Source of the DNA: Collimonas fungivorans Ter331
Lineage (GTDB): Bacteria; Pseudomonadota; Gammaproteobacteria; Burkholderiales; Burkholderiaceae_D
Direction: 5' to 3'
NCBI RefSeq assembly: GCF_000221045.1
Contig: NC_015856.1
Coordinates: forward strand, 3,926,542 to 3,990,541
Length of the DNA stretch: 64,000 bases
The notes beneath the pieces were generated by a model. It was not told the origin of the DNA. It saw only the letters and a program-made list of their open reading frames with translations, and did no database searches. A program made the position numbers and the translations under genes. Shown here piece by piece: positions 1 to 28,724 of the stretch. How positions within the stretch are numbered: position 1 is the first letter of the stretch; each line of letters opens with the position of its first letter.

Positions 1-429
1 CAATCCCGAGCCATATAAATTGTAAATATCCACCAACTCAGAACCGTCAGCGGCGGACATGTCGTAAACATCGCTCTCGGCCTCCGCCGTGAAGGAAACG
101 ACTATCATGATCCCGCCAGTGCGCGCAGCCGTGTAGGAACCTGGCAAAATATTCACTGCGTGTGGAACAACACCAAAACCACTGTCCAACTGCATATCAA
201 ACGTGATTGAACCTTTACGGATTACATGGTGATAGAAGGCAGTCCAGATCGAAAATTGCAGCGCGTCTAAAATAAGAGTTACTTTGAACCGTTGCACACC
301 TCGATCCCAATCCATGCCATAGCGAGGTATGCCACCGGCAACATCTGTGCGCAATACACCGCCTGGCTCATCCATCGAGTAACCGGCAACGACAGGCTTT
401 ATTCCATTTGGCATAACTGGATTTGCCAT
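1..429 (-). CDS. Phage tail protein downstream of the tape measure (partial, 3' end outside window)
   Basis: The frame is open from ATG at 429 down to base 1 (143 codons, no stop), so the C-terminus is missing. The ATG overlaps the tape-measure stop (TAATG) and follows AAGGAG, which gives translational coupling. The protein begins MANPVMPNGIKPVVAGY and has alternating hydrophobic/polar beta-like segments, without signal peptide or membrane helix. Position right after the tape measure suggests a distal-tail or tail-tip component. No specific family is recognised; the tail role rests on context. Confidence 0.75.
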   Translation of the reverse strand, partial: MANPVMPNGIKPVVAGYSMDEPGGVLRTDVAGGIPRYGMDWDRGVQRFKVTLILDALQFSIWTAFYHHVIRKGSITFDMQLDSGFGVVPHAVNILPGSYTAARTGGIMIVVSFTAEAESDVYDMSAADGSELVDIYNLYGSGL

Positions 430-3218
430 TACCTGCTCCTTTGGACACTGAAATTTCTACCCATCGACCTGGATATTTTGCTGTTTGGGTCACCCAACTG
501 CACGCCGGTTGCGGCGAGGGCTTCCTCGATGATTAAGGCCCGTTCCCCATTGCTTAAACGCTGCTCAGTAACTTTTCCAATTGGCGCACTTGTCTGGTTC
601 ACAATGGTGATAGCGCCCGAACCTACTTTTTCGCTGTCAGTGCTGCTGTTCTTTGCAAGATCACGAATCACGTTTGCTTGCTGCTGCGGCAATACCATTT
701 CTTTTTCGTGGAGTTGCGTCAAAGGATTGACGCCGGCGGGAATATCGAAGCCGTCTCTGGCGGAAGCAACACTCAGCGTCGCAGAAGCAATGGCAGCCGC
801 CGCAAAGCCTTCCGCAACAGCTGTTGCCGTGGCCGCCGCCGCTGGTGCAAGTACCGGCCCAACAATCGGTATTGCAGCAGTCGAAGCGAATGCCGCAAGG
901 CCTGCCATTGCGACCATCGCTTGCGATTGCGCCGCTACCGTTCCTGCGTACATGGTGGCCGCTGTCTTGTCGATGAACAGCTTTTGAATCTGAATCTTGA
1001 TGAACGACGTAATGAACGCATCTGCAACACTGCTTGCAACGTTTTTTAAGGCATCGCCCAGATTTTCACTATAAATTATCGACTTGGAAATACTGGATGC
1101 AACGCCCTCAGTCATCGAATCAAAGGCATTTGTGAACATAGCGGCCGTGTTACCTGAGACATTCTCGGCGTTGCTCTGGTAATTTGCAAAAGCCTCGGTT
1201 GCACCGTTCAGCCAGTCACCCTGCTTTTCCTTTATTGCAGCTGTCCTGGCTGTATATGCCTCCACCTCTTTGGCATAAGTATCATTGACAACTGCAAGAT
1301 AGCTGTCGAATTGGTCCTTGGTGATTTTTTCGTTGCGCAAGTCACGCTCGAGGCCTTGACGTTCTGTCGTCTGCTTATCTTCAATCTTGCTGATGCCGGC
1401 TTGATTGTTTCGAAACTCGTCGCCCTTGCCGATGCCGGAAATTTCACGAGCATTCTGCCGATTTATAGTATCCAGATAGGCTTGCGCGGCCGTCGTAGCA
1501 TCGACGTACGATTGCGCAATTTTCTTGTTAGCTGCTTCCTCCTGAATTCCGTTCACAGCAACGTTTGACGCCGCGTCAGCACGGACTTTTGCCAGCTTTG
1601 CCTGAGCGTCTGCGATCTTACGATCGTTATTAATCTTATCCTTGCCGATCAGGTCTTCTTTCTGCAGGCGTGCAATTTCTGCTTGTAGCGCCGTTTCTTG
1701 AGCCTGGCTGTTGAGATTCAAGAATCCCAATTTTGAAGCGTAGTACTGTTGATCATCGACCAGACCAGCCGCACGCATGGCTTGCATGATTTTCTCGGCG
1801 TTCGCATACGCGCCAGTAGTGGCTTCCTGCGCTTTCCGAATTTCGTCCAGGTCTGCCGTAAGCTGGGCTTTCGCCTCCTGACCAGCGGTATTTTTCCCTT
1901 TACCCTCTTTATCCTGAGAAAGGCCTGAAATATTTATCTTCGGCTTGCCTGGCGCCGGATTGTTTCTACCCTCATTCGAATAATTCGACGGATCGGCCGG
2001 CGTCGCCGGTTGCCCGATCGACATAATGCGCGCTTGGAATTTATCCAGTTCGGCCCTTGCTCGCACCGCATCCTGCGAAACGGCATCACTGATGGCGCGA
2101 AAGCCTGTGAAGTCGAGGTGTGCAAGAGCAACAAGTTGGGCGGCAATCGCACCAATTTCACGACCGACACCGAGAAACACAAAACCAACGTCAGATCCGA
2201 CAATTGCAATCGTCTGGAATACAACGATGGCGCCATTCATCGCCGCCTTGAGTATGTCGGTTGCCGTTGCGGCCGTCGTTTCATCGCGTGCAAGATCGGC
2301 AATGATGCCCTGTACGATCGTCAGCGTCGGCACCACGCCGGCGGCCTGTACCTGCAAGAATTCCTGCATGCCTGCCGTCAGACGTGCGTTCGCCTTTGAG
2401 TAGTCGTCGGCAGCTTTGATTTGGTCGTCGGTCAGCCGGATCTGGCGTTCTCCCCCGTCTGCGAGATCATTCAAGAATGGGATGATTTCGGCACCCGACT
2501 TGCCAAATAACGCGACTGCAACAGCTGTCTTCTCCGAACCATCGGCGAACCCGGCCATTGCTCCCGCCACGGCATCCAACTGCTCGACCGGCGACATTGC
2601 CTTGAATTTCTGAAAATCCAGGCCTAGCGCGGATATGGCCGCACCGACAGCCTTCGACTCGTCGTCGGTTTTTGACAAGGATGCAGTCAATTTTATTGAC
2701 GCAGATGCAACACTGTCCAGAGACACGCCAGAAAGACTCGATGCCATGTGAAGGGACGCGATACTACTTGCTGTATCCCCCACCTTTTCAGACAACTGCT
2801 GATAGTTCGCAATTTGTTCGATGACGGCGTTGGTCGCAACGAACATCGCCCCGGCCGCCAGAACACTTGCCGCAGAGAGCGCGATGAAACTGGTGCGGAT
2901 CGTGTTGCCGATTTTTTCGCCCTTTTCGTATGCTTCCTTCAGCTTAATGGCCGAATCGGCAGCTTCCAATTGAGCCTGTGATGCACCCCGGAGGGACAAC
3001 TTAAATAGCTCGGTCTCCCGCGCCGACATACTGATAGTCTGTTGCTGCACTTGCAAACGCCCGATATAACGGTCGATTGACTGCGATGCCTTCCCAGTGG
3101 CCTCCTTGCTGGCGTCACCCAAGCCTCGGATGGAGCGCTTGGCGTCATCAAATCCAGCTTTCAGCTTCGTTGAATCCGCTGAAACCTCGATAACGCCTCT
3201 GCCGATCACATCACTCAT
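429..3218 (-). CDS. Tail tape measure protein
   Basis: 929 residues. Sets tail length and occupies the tail-tube lumen before DNA passage. The N-terminus (MSDVIGRGVIEVSADSTKL) resembles the opening seen in many siphovirus tape measures. Long Ala/Lys/Glu/Gln-rich helical stretches follow, for example around residues 440-640. Hydrophobic segments lie near residues 108-135 and 740-815, as expected for a protein that meets the host membrane on injection. It lies downstream of the frameshifted tail chaperone genes, the canonical siphovirus order. Family call is strong from size, composition and position. Confidence 0.9.
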   Translation of the reverse strand: MSDVIGRGVIEVSADSTKLKAGFDDAKRSIRGLGDASKEATGKASQSIDRYIGRLQVQQQTISMSARETELFKLSLRGASQAQLEAADSAIKLKEAYEKGEKIGNTIRTSFIALSAASVLAAGAMFVATNAVIEQIANYQQLSEKVGDTASSIASLHMASSLSGVSLDSVASASIKLTASLSKTDDESKAVGAAISALGLDFQKFKAMSPVEQLDAVAGAMAGFADGSEKTAVAVALFGKSGAEIIPFLNDLADGGERQIRLTDDQIKAADDYSKANARLTAGMQEFLQVQAAGVVPTLTIVQGIIADLARDETTAATATDILKAAMNGAIVVFQTIAIVGSDVGFVFLGVGREIGAIAAQLVALAHLDFTGFRAISDAVSQDAVRARAELDKFQARIMSIGQPATPADPSNYSNEGRNNPAPGKPKINISGLSQDKEGKGKNTAGQEAKAQLTADLDEIRKAQEATTGAYANAEKIMQAMRAAGLVDDQQYYASKLGFLNLNSQAQETALQAEIARLQKEDLIGKDKINNDRKIADAQAKLAKVRADAASNVAVNGIQEEAANKKIAQSYVDATTAAQAYLDTINRQNAREISGIGKGDEFRNNQAGISKIEDKQTTERQGLERDLRNEKITKDQFDSYLAVVNDTYAKEVEAYTARTAAIKEKQGDWLNGATEAFANYQSNAENVSGNTAAMFTNAFDSMTEGVASSISKSIIYSENLGDALKNVASSVADAFITSFIKIQIQKLFIDKTAATMYAGTVAAQSQAMVAMAGLAAFASTAAIPIVGPVLAPAAAATATAVAEGFAAAAIASATLSVASARDGFDIPAGVNPLTQLHEKEMVLPQQQANVIRDLAKNSSTDSEKVGSGAITIVNQTSAPIGKVTEQRLSNGERALIIEEALAATGVQLGDPNSKISRSMGRNFSVQRSR

Positions 3219-3279
3219 AGTACTAGGCCCAATAAAAAATAGCCCGCCAAAGCGCGCCTGTTGAATTACATACCAGCAG

Positions 3280-3902
3280 TTATTTGTTTGATTGCATTTG
3301 TAGCAGCGCCGCGTCTTCCATGGACCTAACGCACTCGAAGGTCTCGGCGCGGTCGCTGTGCGGAACTCCCATCAGCCTCATAACGACTGGCAAGGAATTG
3401 TAATCAAGCCCAGTTGCACCCGACATTCCAGTCCGCCATTGGGTCGACATCTGGATGAAGACATTCACTGCTAACAGGTTGTCAGGCCATATCTCTACAG
3501 CATCTCCACTTGCTTCTTCTAATGTCAAACCGAACGCCGCAGCCTCGGCTGCGCTCGGTCCTTTCGAGTAGAGCGCCCGGGCTGCGGCTTTCAGTTTTTT
3601 ACTTTTGCCTGCATCAGCTGGTCGATATAAGTCCGATACACGGCAAGTGCTGAACCGATGTAGTTTTCCAGCAAAAGTTCGATGGATTCCTGGTTGAATT
3701 CGTCGTCCAGATCCCACGCCTCAGCCATGGCGAGTAGCGACTCGGCGTCCGACTGGTCGGCGCGGGATTTTATGAATTCGTCCAGCGCGGATTTGGTCCG
3801 ATGTTTGAAGGTGAATTCAACGGGTACCGGCTCGCCGCCGGCGACTGGAATGCCGACCTTCGCTTTGAAAGTCGGCGCAGCTTTGAGAATCAGCTTAGCC
3901 AT
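3280..3902 (-). CDS. Tail assembly chaperone, frameshifted GT fusion form
   Basis: A -1 ribosomal frameshift on A AAA AAC at 3,594-3,600 would join the 103-residue G product to the T frame ending at 3,280, giving about 207 residues. The T part reads LKAAARALYSKG and ends LLQMQSNK; it has no good start of its own. G and GT chaperones of siphoviruses bind the tape measure and recruit tail-tube subunits in a fixed ratio set by slippage. Position directly upstream of the tape measure fits exactly. The fusion is inferred from the slippery site and the overlapping frames. Confidence 0.85.
3591..3902 (-). CDS. Tail assembly chaperone G (unshifted form)
   Basis: 103 residues starting MAKLILKAAPTFKAKVG and ending QAKVKN. 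The ATG at 3,902 overlaps the stop of the major tail protein (TAATG), so I prefer it to the longer upstream frame. This is the short, abundant partner of the chaperone pair, terminating at the TGA just after the slippery heptamer. Rich in acidic and helix-forming residues, as in tail chaperones. No other role is suggested by the sequence. Confidence 0.88.
   Translation of the reverse strand: MAKLILKAAPTFKAKVGIPVAGGEPVPVEFTFKHRTKSALDEFIKSRADQSDAESLLAMAEAWDLDDEFNQESIELLLENYIGSALAVYRTYIDQLMQAKVKN
3594..3600 (-). other. -1 programmed frameshift slippery site A AAA AAC
   Basis: On the minus strand the G frame reads GTA AAA AAC TGA. Slipping back one base on A AAA AAC continues into CTG AAA GCC and the T frame. 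This is the canonical X XXY YYZ heptamer, placed immediately before the G stop codon as in many siphoviruses. Confidence 0.88.
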
Positions 3903-4546
3903 TAGTAGCGCACCGGTTCGGCCAGCATGGACATGGTCACTTCGCACGCCATGATTTCATTGATCGTCAGCGACGGCGTCTTGTTCAGCGTGATGTACAT
4001 GTTGTAGACGATGGCCGAGCCATTCGGCAATGTGATCCGTACAGCGCGCGGCAGCCGATCGTCGTTAGCGGTCGAAGCCAGGATGTAGCCTGGTTGCGTT
4101 GGATCGTCCGCAACTGAGAAAGTCAGGCCAGATGCGCTCTTGACAGTGGGAATACGATTTTGCTTGTCGCCTTCGAGGAACTGATATTCCAGGAACTGTT
4201 GCTCACCACCGCTCGAGCTCGAATTGAGAATCTGGGACAGTTGTGTCCAGCCCGTAATCACCCGAACTGAGCCGGCACCGCCATCAGCTGGGTAGACACT
4301 GGTCAAGGAAGTGTCGATACCCAGAAGAGGAACGTCATTAACCGCGACGTTGCCAGCCTTGACGATCTTATCGGTCAAGCGTGACCATCCCGACGTCACT
4401 TCGAGGAAATCCCCAGAAACGACACCGTGCAAAGCGGCCAAGGTAGCCACACCTGGATTTGCATTCGATACGTCGGACATCGCTTTTGGCGCGCCGTAGC
4501 CAGATGCAATAGCGACCAACGCGCCATTAGGGAGAGAAATCGACAT
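3902..4546 (-). CDS. Major tail tube protein
   Basis: 214 residues starting MSISLPNGALVAIASGYGAP. The ATG at 4,546 is preferred over an upstream in-frame ATG because the extra residues do not look like coding sequence. The protein is rich in Ser, Thr, Gly and Val, consistent with the beta-sandwich fold of tail tube proteins. It lies between the tail terminator and chaperone genes, the standard position. Hairpins lie upstream at 4,574-4,614. The stop overlaps the ATG of gene G. Confidence 0.82.
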   Translation of the reverse strand: MSISLPNGALVAIASGYGAPKAMSDVSNANPGVATLAALHGVVSGDFLEVTSGWSRLTDKIVKAGNVAVNDVPLLGIDTSLTSVYPADGGAGSVRVITGWTQLSQILNSSSSGGEQQFLEYQFLEGDKQNRIPTVKSASGLTFSVADDPTQPGYILASTANDDRLPRAVRITLPNGSAIVYNMYITLNKTPSLTINEIMACEVTMSMLAEPVRY

Positions 4547-4573
4547 TTTGTTTGCCTTTCGGGAATAATAAAT

Positions 4574-4614
4574 GCCGCTCGAAAGCGGCTCTGTAGAAAT
4601 GCCCAAACAAGGGC
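4574..4614 (-). other. Two stem-loops ahead of the tail tube gene
   Basis: Minus-strand reading gives GCCC/GGGC (4,601-4,614), then GCCGCT-TTCG-AGCGGC (4,574-4,589) with a UUCG-type tetraloop followed by ATTTATTATT. The pair could be a weak intrinsic terminator or a 5' stabilising hairpin for the abundant tail-tube message. Function is inferred. Confidence 0.55.
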
Positions 4615-17497: not shown

Positions 17498-18178
17498 ATG
17501 AATACAATGGCCAACAGAATTGCAGAAGCACTTGAGAGGAAGGGCGGCAACCAGTCAGAGATGGCTAGATACGTCGGCGTCAGCCCTCAAGCTGTACAAA
17601 AATGGATCGCGGGCGAATCAGAGCCACGCGGGAAAAATCTCGACTTGGCTGCCGAATTCCTTGGCACATCACCTGCCATCCTCAAATTCGGCGATAAGAT
17701 AGGCAACGCGTTGCCCAAGGACTACAAAAACGTCGTGGTTTTTGATCCTGACAACCAGGACTACATTGAAATTCGGAGAGTGAAGTTGAAACTTTCGGCT
17801 GGGATTACTGGATTTACTACTGAGTCGGCAGAGGATTTTGGGCGTCCAATTAGTTTTCGCCGTGAGTGGTTCATTAAGAAGGGCTATTCGCCTGACAGGC
17901 TTGTCGCAATTGACGTCAAGGGAGACAGCATGGAGCCGACTATGTCCGATGGTGATACCGTGGTGATTAACACGGCAGATGTTATCCCAAAAAATGGCGA
18001 AACCTTTGCTGTGAACTATGAAGGTGAAGGCGTCATCAAGCGCCTTGCACGCGACTTCGGAAGATGGTTTTTATCGTCCGACAATCCAGATCAGCGTCGC
18101 TATCATCGCCAGGAATGCAGCACCGGGTCGTGCATCATCATCGGCAAAGTCATTTTGCTTCAAAGAGAAACTATCTAA
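17498..18178 (+). CDS. CI-type repressor with S24 self-cleavage domain
   Basis: 226 residues. HTH at ~19-40 (QSEMARYVGVSPQAVQKW). Ala101-Gly102 is the likely autocleavage site; Ser144 in VKGDSMEPT and Lys181 in EGVIKRL form the catalytic dyad of the LexA/S24 peptidase fold. It should hold the prophage silent and be inactivated through RecA on DNA damage. ATG at 17,498 or 17,507 is possible; neither has a strong ribosome site. Confidence 0.94.
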   Translation: MNTMANRIAEALERKGGNQSEMARYVGVSPQAVQKWIAGESEPRGKNLDLAAEFLGTSPAILKFGDKIGNALPKDYKNVVVFDPDNQDYIEIRRVKLKLSAGITGFTTESAEDFGRPISFRREWFIKKGYSPDRLVAIDVKGDSMEPTMSDGDTVVINTADVIPKNGETFAVNYEGEGVIKRLARDFGRWFLSSDNPDQRRYHRQECSTGSCIIIGKVILLQRETI

Positions 18179-18980: not shown

Positions 18981-19172
18981 ATGCCAGCCCGCATCCAACC
19001 TGATCGAGCCGCACTGGAAATTGCACATCGCATGCTGTTTTCCACATTGTCGCTGGACGAGATGTTGATGCACCCAGCGCACAAGCTGATTGTAGAAACC
19101 GTCGCCCGTCGGCACATGCAGCGCCGCGAACGATTGGACGTAAAAAAGCTGCAGGCAAACGACCGCGACTAA
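18981..19172 (+). CDS. Small hypothetical phage protein (63 aa)
   Basis: Starts MPARIQPDRAALEIAHRMLF and is helical throughout, with an Arg/Lys-rich C-terminus. In line with its neighbours and separated by short gaps. No family recognised and no clear ribosome site, so coding is moderately likely. Confidence 0.5.
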   Translation: MPARIQPDRAALEIAHRMLFSTLSLDEMLMHPAHKLIVETVARRHMQRRERLDVKKLQANDRD

Positions 19173-19199
19173 TCGCACCACTTCCATCATGGAGTAATC

Positions 19200-19382
19200 A
19201 TGCAGATCAAAGTAGACGACGCAGTGAAACACCATAACTACCCCATCGGTACTGTTAAAGCCATTCTTCGCAACATCGCCAACGGCCAAGAATTCGGTAT
19301 CGTCGAATTGCACGGTTACCCGAACGGATCGCTGCAAAGTATTCCTATAGCTGAGTTGACCCTCGATCAGGCTAACGGCTGA
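19200..19382 (+). CDS. Small hypothetical phage protein (60 aa)
   Basis: Starts MQIKVDDAVKHHNYPIGTVK and contains VGDxV-like beta strands in the style of small SH3-fold or KOW-like domains (HGYPNGSLQSIPIAELTL). ATGGAG lies about 8 bases before the ATG. The next gene starts 2 bases after its stop. Function unknown; nucleic-acid binding is a guess from the fold pattern. Confidence 0.6.
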   Translation: MQIKVDDAVKHHNYPIGTVKAILRNIANGQEFGIVELHGYPNGSLQSIPIAELTLDQANG

Positions 19383-19384
19383 TT

Positions 19385-19789
19385 ATGAGCACCTCCAAGC
19401 CACGTCGCAACAAGGCCTACAAGCCGCGCTCGGTTCGCATCCCGATGATGCCTGAGACACGTAACAGCCTGGCGTTGGAATTGCACCTGGCGACAGAGGC
19501 ACTGATCGCCGTACCGTCGCCAGATACATACAACCAGTTGTCAATGATGCTGGCTGCGCTGCGCAGAGCCGGGGCAATGGATGTCTCTATCGATCAAGCC
19601 AGCGACGCCATGCTTTCTATCTGCGATCGCTTTGACCGCGTCGGCAAGGTAGGTGTAGCGGAATCCGAAGCAGCAATCCTGCGCCAAGCTGCCGGCGGTA
19701 TCGACCGCCAGATCGGCACAGTACCAATGAACAAATTTAAGCAATCCGTTGCAGACGTATCCGCGTTCTGCATGGCCATCGGCGCATGA
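19385..19789 (+). CDS. Hypothetical phage protein (134 aa)
   Basis: Starts MSTSKPRRNKAYKPRSVRIP. A basic N-terminus is followed by an all-helical domain; proteins with this opening recur in Burkholderiales prophage early regions. It lies directly upstream of the first DGR target gene, in the same operon. No motif assigns a function. Confidence 0.7.
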   Translation: MSTSKPRRNKAYKPRSVRIPMMPETRNSLALELHLATEALIAVPSPDTYNQLSMMLAALRRAGAMDVSIDQASDAMLSICDRFDRVGKVGVAESEAAILRQAAGGIDRQIGTVPMNKFKQSVADVSAFCMAIGA

Positions 19790-19812
19790 GTGCCACAACC
19801 CAAGGAGTCAAC

Positions 19813-20421
19813 ATGCATCAGATCCACATCAAAGAATTGCCAGCCCTTTGTGCCGCGCTTGCCGGCGGCTATTTCGGCGGCTTATTTCGCATCGACGGCA
19901 AACTGTACGCCAACATCGTCGCCGGCCATGAAGGTGAACTCACCGGCGCCTGGAACAAGTCACTCAAGACGGTAGAAGCTGCCCGCAGCTACAGCGACGG
20001 ACTGGCCAACACCGACGCCATGGTCGCTGCCGGCAGCAAGTTGGCGAATGCAGCGCGATCACTGCGCATCGGCGGCTTTGATGACTGGCATATCGGCGCG
20101 CGCGACGTCGTCGAGCTGATGTATCGCCATTTCAAGCCCGGCACCTGTGCGGAAAACATGTACCGTGCCGGCGACAACCCTAGCAGCGTTCCACCTGGCT
20201 ATCCATACACCAAACAATCCCCGGTGCAGGCCTCTGACCCAGCATTTCAAGAAGGCGGCCCGGAGGCACTGGAGGACAGCTGGTACTGGTCGTCTACGCA
20301 GGACGCCGCCCTCCCCGACTATGCATGGATGCAGTACTTCGACAATGGCTACCAGGACAACAACCGCAAGTCGAATGAGTACAGAGCTCGTGCTGTCCGC
20401 AGATTATTAGTCATTGAGTAA
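19813..20421 (+). CDS. DGR target protein 1, DUF1566/C-type-lectin-like
   Basis: 202 residues from the ATG at 19,813, which has AAGGAG 5 bases upstream; an in-frame ATG at 19,786 lacks a site. DDWHIGARDVVELMY and WYWSSTQ mark the DUF1566/formylglycine-type lectin fold of DGR targets. The last ~37 variable residues (162-198) are VR1, ending RARAVRRLLVIE. No signal peptide, so the displayed lectin would be cytoplasmic or packaged. Variable residues should line the ligand-binding face. Ligand unknown. First of three tandem targets sharing the same C-terminus. Confidence 0.9.
   Translation: MHQIHIKELPALCAALAGGYFGGLFRIDGKLYANIVAGHEGELTGAWNKSLKTVEAARSYSDGLANTDAMVAAGSKLANAARSLRIGGFDDWHIGARDVVELMYRHFKPGTCAENMYRAGDNPSSVPPGYPYTKQSPVQASDPAFQEGGPEALEDSWYWSSTQDAALPDYAWMQYFDNGYQDNNRKSNEYRARAVRRLLVIE
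20297..20404 (+). repeat. DGR variable repeat VR1
   Basis: 108 bp aligned without gaps to the TR at 22,029-22,136. Eight differences, every one at a template A (4 to G, 3 to T, 1 to C). The final ~32 bases (from about GAGTACAGAGC to GCAGAT) are identical, the expected initiation-of-homing end. Confidence 0.96.
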
Positions 20422-20441
20422 TTCAGTAATTTAACCATCTG

Positions 20442-20456
20442 CCGGGCGCAGCCCGG
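20442..20456 (+). other. Hairpin downstream of VR1
   Basis: CCGGGC-GCA-GCCCGG, a perfect 6-bp stem 37 bases after VR1. The same element follows VR2 and VR3. Comparable hairpins 3' of VR assist target recognition in the Bordetella phage BPP-1 DGR. A T-rich tract follows, so it could also act as a weak terminator. Confidence 0.75.
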
Positions 20457-20483
20457 ATCGTTTTAATTTTTTAGAGGTGTTTC

Positions 20484-21002
20484 ATGCACAACGTACTCGA
20501 ATTTGAACTACATGGCGCCAAGGTATCGATCCCAGCGGCCAATCTCATAAGCCATTGGCTGGATAAGGCCGGGCTTCCTCGCAATGCGCTGCAGCAGAAT
20601 ATGCTCACCCCACCTCGTATCGGCGCCACATGGATCGGCCAAGGCGGAATCTACGCGGGCATTCTGCGTGGTGAAAATGGCGCACCTGATTACCACCTGA
20701 TCCACGCCACAGTCGAGCATGAAATGGTCGACATGAACTGGGTCCAGGCAAGTGAAAAAGCCGCTGCGCATATCGATGGCCATTCAGATTGGTCGCTTCC
20801 GAATCGCCGCGAGGCTCGCCTGCTGTACATCAATTCGCCAGACGGCTTCGACACTAGCGGATGGTATTGGACGTCAGCGCAGGGCGCCGCCTACCCCGAC
20901 TTTGCATGGGTGCAGTACTTCGTCCATGGCAACCAGCTCGACGGCCACAAGTCGGTTGAGTACAGAGCTCGTGCTGTCCGCAGATTATTAGTCATTGAGT
21001 AA
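20484..21002 (+). CDS. DGR target protein 2, DUF1566/C-type-lectin-like
   Basis: 172 residues with AGAGGTG before the ATG. N-terminal ~55 residues are unlike targets 1 and 3. From IYAGILRGENGAPDYHLI on, the scaffold matches target 3 (GQPDYHLVLL), then DWSLPNRREARLLY and WYWTSAQ. VR2 forms residues ~132-167. With 16 A-directed changes from the template it is the most diversified of the three. No signal peptide or membrane helix. Ligand unknown. Confidence 0.9.
   Translation: MHNVLEFELHGAKVSIPAANLISHWLDKAGLPRNALQQNMLTPPRIGATWIGQGGIYAGILRGENGAPDYHLIHATVEHEMVDMNWVQASEKAAAHIDGHSDWSLPNRREARLLYINSPDGFDTSGWYWTSAQGAAYPDFAWVQYFVHGNQLDGHKSVEYRARAVRRLLVIE
20878..20985 (+). repeat. DGR variable repeat VR2
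   Basis: 108 bp, gap-free against the TR. Sixteen differences, all at template A (8 to G, 6 to T, 2 to C). The 3' invariant end matches the TR to GCAGAT. Confidence 0.96.
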
Positions 21003-21022
21003 TTTAGTAATTTAACCATCTG

Positions 21023-21037
21023 CCGGGCGTAGCCCGG
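21023..21037 (+). other. Hairpin downstream of VR2
   Basis: CCGGGC-GTA-GCCCGG, 37 bases after VR2. Same stem as after VR1 with a one-base loop change, followed by a T run. Confidence 0.75.
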
Positions 21038-21061
21038 ATCGTAATTTTTTTTGGAGTCGCC

Positions 21062-21439
21062 ATGAGCAAAGCGCAATGGATGAAAGAAAACATCAAAAAG
21101 GGTGAGCAATACGCCGGCATCATTCTTAGTAATAACGGGCAACCCGACTACCACCTGGTATTACTGAGCGCTACGCCAGGCGGCCGCTTGACATGGGGTA
21201 AGGCCAAGGAATGGGCCAGCACCGTCGGCGGTGAGCTACCGACTCGCAATGAGCAATCACTTCTTTTCGCCAATCTTAAGCACGAGTTTGAAGCTGCCTG
21301 GTACTGGTCTAGTGAGCAGAACGCCGCCAGCCCCGACTATGCATGGATGCAGGACTTCGGCTATGGCGACCAGTACTACAGCCACGAGTCGTATGAGTAC
21401 AGAGCTCGTGCTGTCCGCAGATTATTAATCATTGAGTAA
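21062..21439 (+). CDS. DGR target protein 3, minimal DUF1566/C-type-lectin-like
   Basis: 125 residues with GGAG before the ATG; the shortest target, essentially the lectin domain alone. Markers: GEQYAGIILSNNGQPDYHLV, LTWGKAKEWASTVGGELPTR, AWYWSSEQ, then VR3 (residues ~85-121) and RARAVRRLLIIE. ELPTRNEQSLLFANL is the conserved DUF1566 loop. The family occurs as DGR targets in several proteobacterial phages. No export signal. Role unknown. Confidence 0.9.
   Translation: MSKAQWMKENIKKGEQYAGIILSNNGQPDYHLVLLSATPGGRLTWGKAKEWASTVGGELPTRNEQSLLFANLKHEFEAAWYWSSEQNAASPDYAWMQDFGYGDQYYSHESYEYRARAVRRLLIIE
21316..21422 (+). repeat. DGR variable repeat VR3
   Basis: 107 bp, gap-free against the TR. Eleven differences, all at template A (7 to G, 4 to T). 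Identity to the TR begins at GCAGAACGCCGCC, including two A positions still unmutated. Confidence 0.96.
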
Positions 21440-21460
21440 TTCAGTAATTTAACAAACTCA

Positions 21461-21473
21461 CGGGCGCAGCCCG
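21461..21473 (+). other. Hairpin downstream of VR3
   Basis: CGGGC-GCA-GCCCG, one base pair shorter than the VR1 and VR2 versions because the flanking C is A. It lies 38 bases after VR3. Confidence 0.7.
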
Positions 21474-21489
21474 GATCGATTTTTTCAGC

Positions 21490-21885
21490 ATGGCTATCCA
21501 CCACCAATTACCGATTTATAAAGCGGCCTACGGTCTGCTCAAGCTGATGACGACCATCACCAAGAATATGCCAAAGGATTTCAAGGCATCGATTGGTGGC
21601 GAGATTCGCAGCCTGTGCGTCCAAAGCGTAATCCTGATCGCCCGCGCTAATGCGGCGCAGGACAAGGCCCCACACCTGACGACGTTGCTGGAGCATATCC
21701 ACGCCGCCGAGATTCTACTTCGCTTGTCGCAAGACATGCGATTCATCTCGACCGGCCAATACGCTACCGCTATCAGTCTGACGGATGTGATCGGTAAACA
21801 GGCCAATGGATGGCGTAAGTCCGCAATAGTACCAGCGCCCGTCACATCACCGCCAAGGCAGTCATGTCAGAGCGAAATTTTCTAA
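21490..21885 (+). CDS. avd: DGR accessory variability determinant (Avd)
   Basis: 131 residues, all helical (four-helix bundle pattern), starting MAIHHQLPIYKAAYGLLKLM and containing TKNMPKDFKASIGGEIRSL. This is the Avd signature: a small basic protein that forms a ring-like pentamer, binds the RT and template RNA, and is needed for mutagenic cDNA synthesis. It lies between the last target and the TR, as in BPP-1. No strong ribosome site precedes the ATG. The C-terminal ~20 residues are less conserved-looking. Confidence 0.92.
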   Translation: MAIHHQLPIYKAAYGLLKLMTTITKNMPKDFKASIGGEIRSLCVQSVILIARANAAQDKAPHLTTLLEHIHAAEILLRLSQDMRFISTGQYATAISLTDVIGKQANGWRKSAIVPAPVTSPPRQSCQSEIF

Positions 21886-22028
21886 TCTGGTCATGCCGCT
21901 GGGTAGCGAACTGCTGCCCACCGCTATGCGCATCACAGATACCACCGGGACACGCCGGCAGGTCTGGCGCAGTTTCTTTGCTGATCGGCTCACGCCTTCG
22001 GCAGATCGACGTAGATAGCATGAAAAAC

Positions 22029-22136
22029 CGCAGAACGCCGCCAACCCCGACTATGCATGGATGCAGAACTTCAACAATGGCAACCAGAACAACAACCACA
22101 AGTCGAATGAGTACAGAGCTCGTGCTGTCCGCAGAT
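22029..22136 (+). repeat. DGR template repeat (TR)
   Basis: 108 bp matching VR1-VR3 except at adenines. In the target frame it would encode Asn-rich text (NAANPDYAWMQNFNNGNQ...), because AAY codons give the widest amino-acid choice under A mutagenesis. It has 36 adenines by my count, 22 in the central block. The TR lies 143 bp after avd, and its 3' end overlaps the likely RT start. In the RT frame the TR has no stop codon. Confidence 0.96.
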
Positions 22137-23255
22137 CAGAACGGTACTACCCCGAGTCATGCTGATTTTTCTATTACTGAATTGGCACAAGCTTATTTTG
22201 ACTGCCGTCAGAGCAAGCGCAATACCCCTAATGCACTGGCATTCGAGCAGGATCTTGAACGCAATTTGACCCGGCTTTACGCTGAGCTGGTCGATGGCTC
22301 ATACAAACCAGGACAATCTATTTGCTTCGTCGTCACGCGCCCTAAGCCGCGGGAAGTCTGGGCGGCCGATTTCCGTGACCGCGTGGTGCACCACCTGTTG
22401 TATAACCGTATTTCCCCACGTTTTTATGCGGCATTTATCAAGGATACCTGCGCCTGCATTCCGGGGCGCGGCACCATGTATGCAGCCCAGCGCCTGGAAG
22501 CGAAGATCCGCAGCGCTACCGAGAACTGGTCGAAGCCTGTCTGGTACCTGAAATGCGACCTCGCCAATTTCTTCGTCAGCATCGATAAAAATGTGCTGCA
22601 CAAACAGATCGCTGTTCGGGTGACGGAACCATGGTGGATGAGGCTTGCTGAAACGATCCTGTTTCACGATCCGCGCCAGAACTATCAGCTGCGCGGAGCA
22701 TCTGCTCTGATCGAGCTCGTGCCACCACACAAGCGCCTGACCAATCAGCCGGCACATCTTGGCCTGCCGATCGGTAACCTTTCATCGCAATTTTTTGCCA
22801 ACATTTACCTTGATGCGCTCGACCAGCATGTCAAGCACCAGGTACGAGCCCGGCATTACATCCGTTATGTCGATGACTTCATCCTGCTACACGAATCCCC
22901 GCAATGGCTCAACGCGGCGCTTGCAGACATCAACGCTTTCCTCCCGGACGTGCTGCATACCAACCTGAATCCCACCAAGACTATCTTGCAACCCGTAGAT
23001 CGCGGCGTCGACTTCGTCGGCCATGTTATCAAACCATGGTTCAGCAGAACGCGGCCGCGCACAGTACGCCAGGCTGTCTCTCGAATCGGAAGCATGGATT
23101 CAGCTGATGTTTTCACGTCAGCTAACAGCTATTTCGGGCTACTGCGCCAGGCTGGAAGCAGCCACATGGATCGGACGAAAATCGCTAAGGCCGTCATGCG
23201 CCGCGGGCATTCTGTCGATAAGCAATTCACCAAAACATTTAGGAAATCAATATGA
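22107..23255 (+). CDS. DGR reverse transcriptase
   Basis: 382 residues if started at ATG 22,107; the frame is open from ATG 21,864 (463 aa, with AAGG upstream) and a TTG exists at 22,182, so the start is uncertain. Homology begins near ITELAQAYFDCRQSKRN. RT motifs (numbered from 22,107): CDLANFF with Asp151, LPIGNLSSQ at 221-228 (the IGxxxSQ box of DGR RTs), and YVDD at 254-257. It copies TR RNA into A-mutagenised cDNA with Avd. No maturase or group II domain. The stop overlaps the methyltransferase start. Confidence 0.95.
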   Translation: MSTELVLSADQNGTTPSHADFSITELAQAYFDCRQSKRNTPNALAFEQDLERNLTRLYAELVDGSYKPGQSICFVVTRPKPREVWAADFRDRVVHHLLYNRISPRFYAAFIKDTCACIPGRGTMYAAQRLEAKIRSATENWSKPVWYLKCDLANFFVSIDKNVLHKQIAVRVTEPWWMRLAETILFHDPRQNYQLRGASALIELVPPHKRLTNQPAHLGLPIGNLSSQFFANIYLDALDQHVKHQVRARHYIRYVDDFILLHESPQWLNAALADINAFLPDVLHTNLNPTKTILQPVDRGVDFVGHVIKPWFSRTRPRTVRQAVSRIGSMDSADVFTSANSYFGLLRQAGSSHMDRTKIAKAVMRRGHSVDKQFTKTFRKSI

Positions 23256-25363
23256 AGCGCGATGCTTTCACTTTGTCCCTCGACCTCGGCCATGAACTAG
23301 TTGTGGACAACTTCGCCGGCGGCGGTGGCGCCAGCACAGCTCTTGCAATCGCGCTTGGCCGCGAGCCAGATATTGCCATCAACCACGATGGCGAGGCGCT
23401 ATGCATGCACGCAGCCAATCACCCCACAACAGAACACCACACCGAAGACGTGTTCATGATACATCCGGGCTTCGTGACTAAGCAGCGGCCAATTGGCGCC
23501 GCGTGGTTCTCACCGACTTGTACGCATTTCTCAAAGGCGAAGGGCGGCAACCTGTTGAATCAAAAGGTGCGCGGCTTGGCCTGGGTCACCGTCAAATGGG
23601 GTGCCTTGCAGATGCCGCGCATGATGTTTCTGGAGAATGTTGAGGAATTCTTGGGATGGGGACCTCTGGACGCTCATGGCTCGCCGATCAAGGAATTGAA
23701 GGGTCGGACCTTCGAAGCCTTCGTCCAGGTGCTGACGACCGGGATCGCCCATGATCACCCCGATCTGGCGGAAATTCACGACACGCTGGGCGCGGATTTC
23801 CCAATTGAACGCCTGCACATAGGGCTGGGCTACAAGGTCGAATGGCGCGTGCTGAAGGCCTGTGACTTCGGCGCACCGACCATCCGCAAGCGCCTGTTCA
23901 TGGTGATGCGCCGCGACGACCGGCCCATCGTCTGGCCAGTGCCGACGCATGCACCACGCGACTCCGAGGCCGTCAAGTCCGGCCGCTTGCTGCCGTATCT
24001 CAGTGCCGCCAGCTGCATCGACTGGTCGATTCCGTGCCCGTCGATCTTCGGGCGCAAGAAGGATTTGAAACCGGCCACCCTGCGCCGTGTGGGCAAGGGA
24101 TTCGAGCGCTATACGAAGGACGCCGCCAATCCTTACATCGTCGGCCAGGGCGGTCCCGCGTATGCCGGGAAGCCGACGTCGACGGACGCCCCATTCGGCA
24201 CGCTGACAACTGAGAACCACCGAGCCATAGTCATCCCCAGTATTGTTCCAATGACGCATCACGGAAGCGATCGCACTGGCTCGATAGATGAGCCACTGGC
24301 AACGGTCACTTGTGCGAATCGCGGTGAACTCGCACTGGCCGCTGTGTCCATGGTGCAGATAGGCTATGGCGAAGCACCCGGGCAGGCTCCCCGCGTTATG
24401 GATCTTGAATCACCGCTCGGGACCGTTGTGGCCGGCGGCGGCAAGCACGCAATCGTGGCCGCGCACATCACCAAGTTCAACACCGGCAGCGTCGGACATG
24501 CCGCCGACGAGCCGCTGGCCACCGTGACCTCTGGCGGCGGCGCTGCGCGTCCGGCCGGTGCCGCGCACGGGCTTGGAATCGTCGCCGCGTCGCTGGTCCA
24601 GTATTACTCCAACGGCAGCCAAAACCGCAGCATCCAGGATCCGATGCCCGCTATCGTTACCAAGGACCGCATCGGCGTGACGTGCGCCTATCTGGCAAAA
24701 CACTATAAGGGCGTTGTCGGGGCCAGCGTCGAGCAGCCCATGCCCACAGTGACGACGTCGGACCACTCCTCGCTGATCACCGCTCACCTGGTGGGCATCG
24801 ACAACCAACGTAACGGCGACCGCGACACATGGCCTGTGGAAAATCCGCTCGGCACCATCGTGACGGAGAATCGGCACGCACTGGTGACCAGCAACATGAT
24901 CAAGCTACGCGGCGACAACGTCGGGTCGGCCAACCGCGATCCACTCGGCACGATCACCGCCGGCGGCCAGCACCACGCTGAAGTGCGCGCCACGCTGGTA
25001 CCGGTTGGTGCGTACGAAGAAAAGCGCCACGCCATCCGCGAATTCCTTTGGGAATATTGCCCGAGCCTGAAAGACGTCGAGCGGCCGGAACTGCTTATGA
25101 TCCAGGGCGTCATGATGGAAGTAGTCGACATCGGCTTGCGCATGCTCAAGCCGCGAGAATTGGCCAATGCGCAAGGCTTCCCGGCAGACTATATTCTCGA
25201 TCCACTCTACACGAAAGTGAATAAGCGTGGAAAGACTGTAACGAAGCCGCTATCTGGCAGCGCGCAAGTGCGCATGATCGGCAATAGCGTTTCGCCACCA
25301 CCAGCTGTGGCATTGATTCGGGCAAATTGCACTCACGAACAAGCAATTGCGAGGGCAGCATGA
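23252..25363 (+). CDS. C5 cytosine DNA methyltransferase with internal repeats
   Basis: 703 residues. Motif I DNFAGGGGAS, catalytic Cys in SPTCTHFSKA, ENV motif in LENVEEF, and C-terminal ARELANAQGFP plus QVRMIGNSVSP (motifs IX-X). Between ~310 and 590 are eight repeats marked by (D/E/Q)P(L/M)xT(V/I), about 35-45 residues apart; this is the target-recognition region. Probably protects phage DNA from host restriction. Start overlaps the RT stop (ATGA), so it is co-translated with the DGR. Confidence 0.93.
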   Translation: MKRDAFTLSLDLGHELVVDNFAGGGGASTALAIALGREPDIAINHDGEALCMHAANHPTTEHHTEDVFMIHPGFVTKQRPIGAAWFSPTCTHFSKAKGGNLLNQKVRGLAWVTVKWGALQMPRMMFLENVEEFLGWGPLDAHGSPIKELKGRTFEAFVQVLTTGIAHDHPDLAEIHDTLGADFPIERLHIGLGYKVEWRVLKACDFGAPTIRKRLFMVMRRDDRPIVWPVPTHAPRDSEAVKSGRLLPYLSAASCIDWSIPCPSIFGRKKDLKPATLRRVGKGFERYTKDAANPYIVGQGGPAYAGKPTSTDAPFGTLTTENHRAIVIPSIVPMTHHGSDRTGSIDEPLATVTCANRGELALAAVSMVQIGYGEAPGQAPRVMDLESPLGTVVAGGGKHAIVAAHITKFNTGSVGHAADEPLATVTSGGGAARPAGAAHGLGIVAASLVQYYSNGSQNRSIQDPMPAIVTKDRIGVTCAYLAKHYKGVVGASVEQPMPTVTTSDHSSLITAHLVGIDNQRNGDRDTWPVENPLGTIVTENRHALVTSNMIKLRGDNVGSANRDPLGTITAGGQHHAEVRATLVPVGAYEEKRHAIREFLWEYCPSLKDVERPELLMIQGVMMEVVDIGLRMLKPRELANAQGFPADYILDPLYTKVNKRGKTVTKPLSGSAQVRMIGNSVSPPPAVALIRANCTHEQAIARAA

Positions 25364-27394: not shown

Positions 27395-27627
27395 TGGACG
27401 ACTACTTAACAGCTAGTCAAATCGCTACTCTCGTAGGGTGTAGGAATAATAGTTATTCCTGCATGCGCCGGTGGTTGGATAAAAACAGCTGGCCATATGC
27501 CAAAAGCATCACTGGCTTTCCGATCGTCAGTCGCGCATACCACGATGCGCGGATGTCAGGTACTCAAACTGGCAAGCCAAGCGGTAAAGTACGCGTAGAG
27601 CCAAATTTTGGAGCATTGGCAGCATGA
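27394..27627 (+). CDS. DUF4224-like excisionase/recombination accessory protein
   Basis: 77 residues, starting MDDYLTASQIATLVGCRNNS, then MRRWLDKNSWPYA. This HTH-like N-terminus with 'W....' after ~30 residues matches DUF4224 proteins lying immediately upstream of phage integrases, likely directionality factors. Its stop overlaps the integrase start (ATGA). Start at 27,394 is preferred to an upstream in-frame ATG because of the TAATG overlap. Confidence 0.8.
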   Translation: MDDYLTASQIATLVGCRNNSYSCMRRWLDKNSWPYAKSITGFPIVSRAYHDARMSGTQTGKPSGKVRVEPNFGALAA

Positions 27628-28724
27628 TCGGAAGAAGAAAATCACCGGATGGCATGCCATTCCGATTATACGAGCGGATCGGCAAGTTTAAGGTTAGCTA
27701 TGGCTATAAATTGCCAGATGGAACATGGCATTTCCGCCTGACTGCGGGAGTCAATAACCCAGAGGCTGTCGCTGCCATTCGACGCGAAGCGATTTCCCGC
27801 GCTGAGGCACTCAATGGCAATTCTGTCGCAGTTGGAACAACCGAAGCATTGATAAAAAAGTATTTTGCTTGGCAAAATTCAATGCCGGTAGATAGTGAAA
27901 TGCGCAAGGCGACGATCACGCTCGATGAAAACGTAGTTGAATCAAAAAACCTAGTCAAAGTGTTCGGCAAGACCAGCCCGGAAGACATCCGGCCGAAAGA
28001 TATCTACGGTTATCTCAGCGCACGTGCCGCCCTCGGTGCACCATCAAAAGCAAACAAAGAGATAGCGTTACTTTCTGCAGTGCTGGAGTATGGACGACGT
28101 CTCGGCGAGCTTGAGGACAATCCGTGCCGCGGCATTAAATATAACAAGACAAAGCCACGGCAGAAATATGTCGGCCCCCATGAAGTCGACATGATGATGG
28201 CGACGGCACGTGTTCACGGAGGTAGCTACCTGATACTCGCGCTTTGCCTATATACCGCCTATCTGACGGTGAGTCGCCCTACCGAGATGCGCACCCTTGC
28301 CCGCCAGAACGTGAAACCAGGGCTAGGCATCGAGATTGCGATCGGCAAGCGCAAAGCCGGCCAGGCGCAGCGCACGAAGCTGATTCACTGGTCGCCAGCA
28401 TTAAAGGCCACTGTGGACGAAGCATTGGCCTTGCAACGCATTCCGGGTATCTACGTGTTCGCCAACAGCTCCGGCCAAGTGTACACCCGCAGCGGCTTCA
28501 ATACGATCCTGACACGACTGATGAAACATTGCGAAGCCAAAGCGAAAGCGGATGGGACTGATTTTGTGCGCTTCACCCTGGCCGACATGCGCCCCACCGC
28601 TGTCACCGATCGGATGGACGGTGGCGACACGCATATCACCGACGCCACCGGACACAGCGATGGCAGGATGGTAGCAAAGGTTTACGATCGCCGTAAAGTG
28701 AAGACGGCAAAGGCGACAAAATGA
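27624..28724 (+). CDS. int: Tyrosine integrase
   Basis: 366 residues. Catalytic residues: Arg218 in SRPTEM, Arg323 in ADMRPTA (the usual His three residues earlier is Ala320), His344 in TGHSD, Tyr354 in VYDRR. N-terminal arm-type domain precedes a SAM-like core-binding domain (~70-165). Recombines attP with the tRNA-His gene. The gene ends 113 bases before the att core, the usual integrase-att layout. Confidence 0.95.
   Translation: MIGRRKSPDGMPFRLYERIGKFKVSYGYKLPDGTWHFRLTAGVNNPEAVAAIRREAISRAEALNGNSVAVGTTEALIKKYFAWQNSMPVDSEMRKATITLDENVVESKNLVKVFGKTSPEDIRPKDIYGYLSARAALGAPSKANKEIALLSAVLEYGRRLGELEDNPCRGIKYNKTKPRQKYVGPHEVDMMMATARVHGGSYLILALCLYTAYLTVSRPTEMRTLARQNVKPGLGIEIAIGKRKAGQAQRTKLIHWSPALKATVDEALALQRIPGIYVFANSSGQVYTRSGFNTILTRLMKHCEAKAKADGTDFVRFTLADMRPTAVTDRMDGGDTHITDATGHSDGRMVAKVYDRRKVKTAKATK

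Follow-up and report, generated by a model that had tools for sequence, protein, structure and literature searches.

A stretch of 64,000 nucleotides of Collimonas fungivorans Ter331 (contig NC_015856.1; hereafter the window, with coordinates counted from its first letter) carries a complete diversity-generating retroelement (DGR) at positions 19786–23255, comprising three lectin-like target genes, avd, a template repeat (TR) and a DGR-type reverse transcriptase (RT), all on the plus strand. The cassette belongs to the DGRs, with a variant RNA layout: the structured RNA RT-15 lies on the 5' side of the TR, and its linker forms a covarying structure, the closing helix, with the 3' end of the TR. 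Each variable repeat (VR) is followed by a tandem array of 8-bp units. Neither the RT-15 RNA nor the arrays appeared in the initial annotation of this DNA. We consider it fairly likely that the observations as a whole are explained by a functional prophage DGR with clamping and priming by the 5' RT-15 element, array-marked VRs and lectin-like targets that act inside the cell.

Target gene 1 (19786–20421, with a second start at 19813) ends in an Lcl_C domain that contains VR1 (20297–20404), target gene 2 (20484–21002) adds an N-terminal extension to a C-type-lectin-like domain carrying VR2 (20878–20985), and target gene 3 (21062–21439) is a minimal lectin-like domain carrying VR3 (21316–21422). 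They are followed by avd (21490–21885; Pfam bAvd, E = 3.9e-12; PHROG Avd, E = 4.6e-37) and by the TR (22029–22136), which has 108 bp and 36 adenines. VR1, VR2 and VR3 differ from the TR at 8, 16 and 11 positions, and at every one of these 35 mismatches the TR has an adenine (hypergeometric P = 8.6e-5, 1.4e-9 and 1.7e-6, respectively). VR3 is one base shorter than the TR; when it is extended to full TR length, the base added at its front differs from the TR at a position other than A. A search of the same genome returned the TR itself, the three window VRs and three other matches of 19–23 bp with E from 0.26 to 0.91.

The maximal open frame of the RT extends over 21864–23255, with in-frame ATGs inside the TR at 22077 and 22107; its start is uncertain, and the conserved domain appears to begin at about 22174. 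Such an overlap of the TR with the ends of the RT open reading frame (ORF) is described for group 3 of the DiGReF survey (PMC3521204). The RT carries the motifs IGNLSSQ and YVDD and matches phrog_1423 (E = 2.6e-121). The [ILV]GxxxSQ motif is a hallmark of DGR RTs. The nearest PDB sequence is chain 8ub7_A, named reverse transcriptase (E = 2.1e-37), which we take to be the RT of BPP-1. A quick tree built with other DGR RTs, including long-branched outgroups, groups 42 of the 48 RTs into a single clade (SH-aLRT 98), which two further loci, L037 and L038, adjoin. With these motifs, TR/VR pairs mismatched at A, an Avd protein and C-terminal VRs in a C-type lectin fold (modelled for target 2, assigned by Pfam only for targets 1 and 3), the cassette shows the features of a DGR, and the claims of the initial annotation of a prophage DGR that is complete and has three targets, of three consecutive lectin-like genes each with a C-terminal VR, and of an RT with an IGxxxSQ box and YVDD are all borne out.

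RT-15 (RF03018) occupies 21833–22030 on the plus strand, overlapping the 3' end of avd, preceding the RT and ending at the start of the TR. Its score of 159.9 bits (E = 1.7e-39) stands against a gathering score of 82 and makes it a strong member of the family; it is the sole Rfam match within 19000–24000, so that no structured spacer RNA of the BPP-1 type was found there 3' of the TR. Relatives were drawn from 5 genome contigs and 29 viral contigs, from 13 places in 12 of the 294 family genomes, and from phage records, of which 110 matched and 9 exceeded 60% identity. In a later profile scan at least 600 stretches matched, 569 of those listed encoding a relative at E ≤ 1e-3, and the best 80 were kept. 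RT-15 exceeded the gathering score in 32 of the 34 relatives scanned, the exceptions being L037 (a sub-threshold match of 48 bits in the same place) and L038 (no match), and in 31 of the 32 its 3' end fell 0–6 nt inside the TR start; for the remaining locus, L040, the TR start could not be judged, the VR being cut by the locus end. Among the 294 family genomes, the set with RT-15 above the cut-off and the set with an RT of the window type are identical, each comprising 12 genomes with 13 places. Nine family genomes gave RT-15 matches below the cut-off (25.9–33.3 bits), and no TR/VR pair was present in the 8 such loci examined. A class sample had RT-15 in 1 of 369 genomes, the window's own, and thus contributed no independent loci. 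Since the Rfam model stops at the TR start, the closing helix is missing from it.

The 5' strand of the closing helix (21880–21889) reads UUCU, an unpaired A21884 and AUCUG, and its 3' strand (22132–22141) reads CAGAU, which is the end of the TR, an unpaired C22137 and AGAA. Across loci, the linker before the RT-15 main domain follows the pattern NNN-N-AUCUGG and the 3' end of the TR the pattern CAGAU-N-NNN. The AUCUG:CAGAU core is no evidence by itself, because it is nearly invariant and partly guided the search. The 41 discovery loci, which exclude L037 and L038 since the linker pattern was not found there, give 27 distinct combinations. At positions 2–4 we counted 67 pairs out of 81, against 47.3 (standard deviation 3.1) after permutation, and none of 20000 permutations scored as high; position 2 was paired in 26 of the 27 combinations, as U-A, G-C or C-G. 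Covariation of the helix in the alignment (0.230 versus 0.074 shuffled, 0/500 as high; slid controls ≤0.096) and duplex energy (−5.41 kcal/mol for cognate versus −4.33 kcal/mol for permuted strands, 0/5000 as good) agree with the pair counts, and on the quick tree, by our reading, C-G forms turn up at three or more separate points and G-C forms at two different ones.

The helix was replicated in new loci. From 83 loci examined, 9 duplicates were dropped, leaving 74, of which 66 have a TR; 2 of these lack the linker and 5 the TR core pattern, so that 59 were usable, with 36 distinct combinations, 32 of them unseen before. In the latter we found 82 of 96 pairs, versus 64.5 (standard deviation 2.85) permuted, and 0 of 5000 permutations were as high; position 2 was paired in 31 of 32 (20.9 expected) and position 4 in 24 of 32 (18.5 expected). 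The alignment of TR with VR ends at most 4 nt from the helix core in 80 of 83 cases, the other three being truncated alignments. The helix is thus located where TR/VR homology ends and probably sets the start of the complementary DNA (cDNA): copying must begin at the 3' end of the TR, which is where the helix sits.

Several observations weigh against this picture. Position 3 alone was not above permutation in the new loci (27/32 versus 25.2, 660/5000 as high). At position −1 the new loci also show G-C and C-G pairs and A is not universal; the idea that a conserved bulged A at this position is the primer was therefore retained as no more than a possibility, A being found in 24 of 27 discovery combinations and only 24 of 32 new ones. 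RNAalifold prefers to pair UCUGGU with a nearly invariant ACCAGA inside the TR; no covariation was detected for this alternative pairing, and it may compete with the closing helix as a second state. The L037 linker outdoes about 96% of shuffled sequences in pairing with the TR end, yet other upstream segments of that locus pair there more strongly, and we do not count it as support; no clear linker was found in L038. Two of four outgroup DGRs (Bacteroides F2 and phiARM81mr) have no Rfam RNA on either side of the TR. The RT frame is open through RT-15 and the TR in several relatives, which makes translation through the template RNA possible. As a general explanation we rejected it: the frame, open in many relatives, is closed inside or just before the TR in others.

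The lineage also provides natural variation. Two loci, L028 and L036, show 14 differences over 2525 bp, all in one VR and all at TR adenines. Between L092 and L094 the 26 VR differences are all at TR adenines as well, with 95 of 1716 positions differing outside the VRs, and one VR of L098 and L099 differs at 16 positions, all TR adenines; the two other VRs of this pair and the pair L137/L138 were out of register in the ungapped comparison and were not used. No VR difference was found in the compared span of L020–L023, L005/L013 and L008/L035, save a single A-to-G difference between L022 and L023, in the distal VR and at a TR adenine; for L005/L013 and L008/L035, both members of the pair may represent one strain kept in two collections. 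Differences confined to VRs show activity for the lineage rather than for the window prophage. Together with the A-only divergence of the window VRs they lend indirect support to the earlier suggestion that this DGR may be active, and judging by its sequence it is probably functional.

Two or three VRs are usual in these loci: at least two were found in 58 of the 66 new loci with a TR, and two or three in 34 of 43 discovery loci by an automatic count that is a lower bound, because some loci are cut. In L024 and L025 the automatic count was zero, and direct TR/VR comparison revealed three VRs in each. The earlier statement that multi-target DGRs are less common than single-target ones therefore holds for DGRs at large (about a seventh in the DiGReF survey, as given in PMC3521204) and not for this lineage.

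The prophage that carries the cassette has genes for primase, terminase, portal, capsid, tape measure, repressor and integrase, and its tail genes suggest a temperate, siphovirus-like phage. Primase, terminase, head and tail genes are on the minus strand, with tail genes at 429–4606 and beyond the left window edge, where the spanin also lies; repressor (17498–18178), DGR, C5 methylase and integrase (27624–28724) are together on the plus strand, which places the DGR, and the three targets with it, in a repressor-to-integrase arm. No target was found within or beside the tail module of the window prophage, as would be expected of a DGR that diversifies tail fibres. Among seven annotated phage records, Burkholderia phage Magia and Pseudomonas phages Cruim01 and Haboob, which belong to the same lineage and have 2–3 VRs, avd and RT, show the order repressor, DGR, integrase; QDWS and LPPA56 have the integrase downstream of the DGR, and phPA-G has the repressor upstream. 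In the sparsely annotated SC_8_H2H8_2017 the integrase is on the other side. RT-15 is annotated in Cruim01 and was found by cmscan in Haboob, and both have a methylase downstream, as in the window. The three phages differ from the window in target number and spacing, one VR lying 7 kb (Magia) or 9 kb (Cruim01) upstream of the TR.

All three targets match Pfam Lcl_C, two above the cut-off and target 3 below it (31.3 versus 34.9 bits), and with 125–211 aa they consist of little besides the lectin-like domain. An AlphaFold2 model of target 2 (pLDDT 90.2) shows a lectin-like domain preceded by a small beta-beta-alpha unit at the N-terminus; for the lectin-like domain, Foldseek gives the C-terminal domain of Legionella pneumophila Lcl (8q4e) as the closest solved fold (E = 2.3e-6, 24% identity); the model of target 1 (pLDDT 66) was not used. 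Lcl is a surface adhesin. The window targets, on the other hand, have no evident export signals, in line with what had been annotated initially: by Kyte–Doolittle hydropathy, no long hydrophobic N-terminus was found in them (best 19-residue means within the first 45 residues 1.37, 0.87 and 0.41). It should be noted that the targets look like modular fusions on one VR domain, target 3 being minimal, target 2 adding the beta-beta-alpha unit and other loci having other N-termini. The automatic choice of target ORFs, which took a wrong frame or none at some loci, was relied on only for the window, for homologues also found with BLAST and for L037 and L038.

Gene position, small size and the lack of evident export signals lead us to lean, with some reserve, towards targets that act inside the lysogen or infected cell rather than as tail adhesins, and it counts against this placement that these are the only grounds on which it is argued. 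The opposite possibility, virion tail adhesins encoded apart from the tail genes, is a serious if less probable one: most viral DGR targets in clades 1, 4 and 6 carry tail-protein annotations, as reported in PMC8144416, the neighbouring loci L037 and L038 have long targets (679 and 610 aa), the fold matches in BFVD include long phage proteins, of which one bears the name receptor binding protein and another tail fiber protein, and the integrase of SC_8_H2H8_2017 is not downstream of the DGR. Against it stand the location of the DGR between repressor and integrase in the window, Magia, Cruim01 and Haboob, and small targets with little past the lectin-like domain in a prophage whose tail genes are elsewhere.

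Downstream of every window VR there is an array of the unit MTTYARYM with a period of 8: at 20413–20436 after VR1 (ATTGAGTA ATTCAGTA ATTTAACC; score 25.2), at 20994–21017 after VR2 (25.7) and at 21431–21454 after VR3 (24.9), all on the plus strand. In 90 discovery VR flanks the mean lag-8 self-similarity was 12.8, compared with 7.4 after shuffling, and at least two phased NTTYA units were present in 69 of the 90, in 0 of 43 TR flanks and in 10 of 1800 shuffles. Even when the window and the three relatives closest to it were left out of its training, a weight matrix ranked the three VR flanks of the window at the top (24.9–25.7), the best unrelated site in the 64 kb scoring 12.7. At a threshold of 6.64, the array was found in 127 of 134 VR flanks of the new loci, in 0 of 66 TR flanks and in 12 of 1340 shuffles. 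The agreement is not complete, since 11 of the 90 discovery flanks scored below 13, 7 of the 134 new flanks missed even the lower threshold, and Haboob has the array at only 1 of its 2 VRs. None of the four outgroup DGRs (BPP-1, BalMu-1, Bacteroides F2 and phiARM81mr) has the array.

The arrays of the window are followed by hairpins: 20442–20456 (6-bp stem, 3-nt loop GCA) after VR1, 21023–21037 (6-bp stem, loop of 3 nt, GTA) after VR2 and 21461–21473 (5-bp stem, 3-nt loop GCA) after VR3, each on the plus strand. Thus, the claim that each target has its own 3' hairpin is correct for the window and does not extend to the lineage, where a hairpin detector was positive in 35 of 84 VR flanks and 4 of 41 TR flanks (L024 and L025 not counted); as a general mark of targets we rejected the hairpins in favor of the far more general array. 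At their centres the window hairpins read GC-GNA-GC, and T-rich stretches then follow. The GC-GNA-GC sequence forms an unusually stable DNA mini-hairpin. The hairpins may double as transcript terminators, being readable as such in part, with no more hits than shuffles predict. No target hairpin of the BPP-1 type, which has a 7–10 bp stem and a 4-nt GRNA loop as described in PMC3240598, was found in the window.

The BPP-1 stem-loop has been proposed to hold the target open for cDNA pairing (PMC12875486), and by analogy the AT-rich array could serve in a like way to keep the target open. It is less likely, though a real possibility, that the arrays are merely inherited AT-rich spacers or terminator remnants without a homing role. 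All VRs of the lineage could stem from one ancestor, and, as the flanks share descent, the array counts are not independent events; the partial terminator character of the hairpins that follow fits this explanation too. It accounts poorly for the 8-bp phase, which is kept at most VR flanks over RT identities of about 59–100% and also at far-apart targets of one phage, and for the complete absence of the array from TR flanks in both sets of loci.

For the RNA, it is improbable that RT-15 is a leader controlling the translation of RT or avd, with the contact to the TR end acting as a regulatory switch and not in priming. The overlap of RT-15 with the avd 3' end, its position ahead of the RT and the existence of a competing pairing to the TR would suit such a leader. 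In L024 and L025, however, about 1.1 kb of other ORFs parts the TR from the RT, and RT-15 remains beside the TR; with respect to the linker, the position of the avd stop ranges from −36 to +93 nt over 40 loci (automatic ORF calls), so that no single avd end goes with RT-15; and the closing helix ends where TR/VR homology ends. The two insertions (L024 6845–7990, L025 6947–7990) are different and are located at about the same point; in both, the open frame of the RT leader runs on into the first ORF, and one carries a VSGGKDSAA motif, presumably PAPS-reductase-like.

Less probable still is a DGR of the BPP-1 style, in which RT-15 does something else and the docking and priming RNA lies 3' of the TR, within the coding sequence of the RT. 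In its favour, the Phage_DGR RNA (RF03022) of BPP-1 and the RT-14 RNA of BalMu-1 both lie 3' of the TR, and with an RT frame that begins inside the TR or shortly past it, a 3' element would here have to be coding. Against it, in L024 and L025 only a short piece of the RT leader is left behind the TR before other genes begin. Third-base (synonymous) conservation was not raised over RT codons 1–30 (0.436 over 12 columns versus 0.441 overall), which gives no sign of a hidden 3' spacer RNA, and this candidate was set aside; with 12 informative columns in the first bin the test has low power there.

We thus retain the model in which the 5' RNA clamps the template. The avd–TR–RT transcript would bear the folded RT-15 RNA directly ahead of the template, and the single-stranded RT-15 linker would pair with the last bases of the TR plus a few bases past it. 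This helix would close the template into a loop and keep the 3' end of the TR, the start of copying, beside the folded RNA, which may dock RT and Avd. Priming of the cDNA at the end of the TR falls in BPP-1 to an adenine of the 3' spacer (PMC12875486); the 5' element may do here what that spacer does, with a primer in or adjoining the closing helix. The RT would then make errors at adenines as it copies the TR, and sequence in the three VRs would be replaced by the resulting cDNA, each VR being marked or opened by the 8-bp array, here plus hairpin, so that transfer could be one way.

The window shares with the BPP-1 DGR (mtd/avd/TR/brt) the order VR–avd–TR–RT, A-specific divergence, an Avd protein, the C-terminal position of the VR and a hairpin after the VR, as far as PMC3240598 and PMC12875486 describe them. 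It differs in the side of the TR on which the structured RNA lies, in an RT frame that starts in or close after the TR, in the arrays, in hairpin loops of 3 nt in place of GRNA tetraloops and in its targets, three small proteins encoded apart from the tail genes where BPP-1 has a single tail protein. In the BPP-1 record (L062 33229–33558) a 'variable region 2' is annotated in bbp36 on the repressor side; our TR/VR search of this record listed only the mtd VR.

Two further observations concern the neighbourhood and the host. The C5 methylase (23252–25363) overlaps the RT stop, and its PHROG matches comprise methylase families and a separate family for the middle part, phrog_23072 (residues 276–519). 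Three further RT matches are present in the host genome (G000:C1 16772–17410, 2686038–2686661 and 3069036–3069632); the frame of one of them is interrupted by a TGA within the match.

Taken together, our results tentatively suggest, at somewhat less than even chance, a DGR lineage with a rearranged template RNA, in which a 5' element serves docking and priming, an array replaces the BPP-1 hairpin and the diversified proteins are receptors of the lysogen outside the tail. In the literature searched we found no report of RT-15 as part of a DGR RNA, of the closing helix or of the 8-bp array, an earlier mention being possible. According to the same literature, the rules of priming and target marking in DGRs derive mostly from BPP-1; if the proposed model is true, an RNA on the opposite side, a clamp at the cDNA start and another target mark would separate the essential from the local rules of DGRs. 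RT-15, which Rfam names just RT-15 RNA and which was known here only by its number, gains a context, with exact residues to probe, and, more speculatively, phage proteins diversified outside the tail might serve in superinfection or counter-defence.

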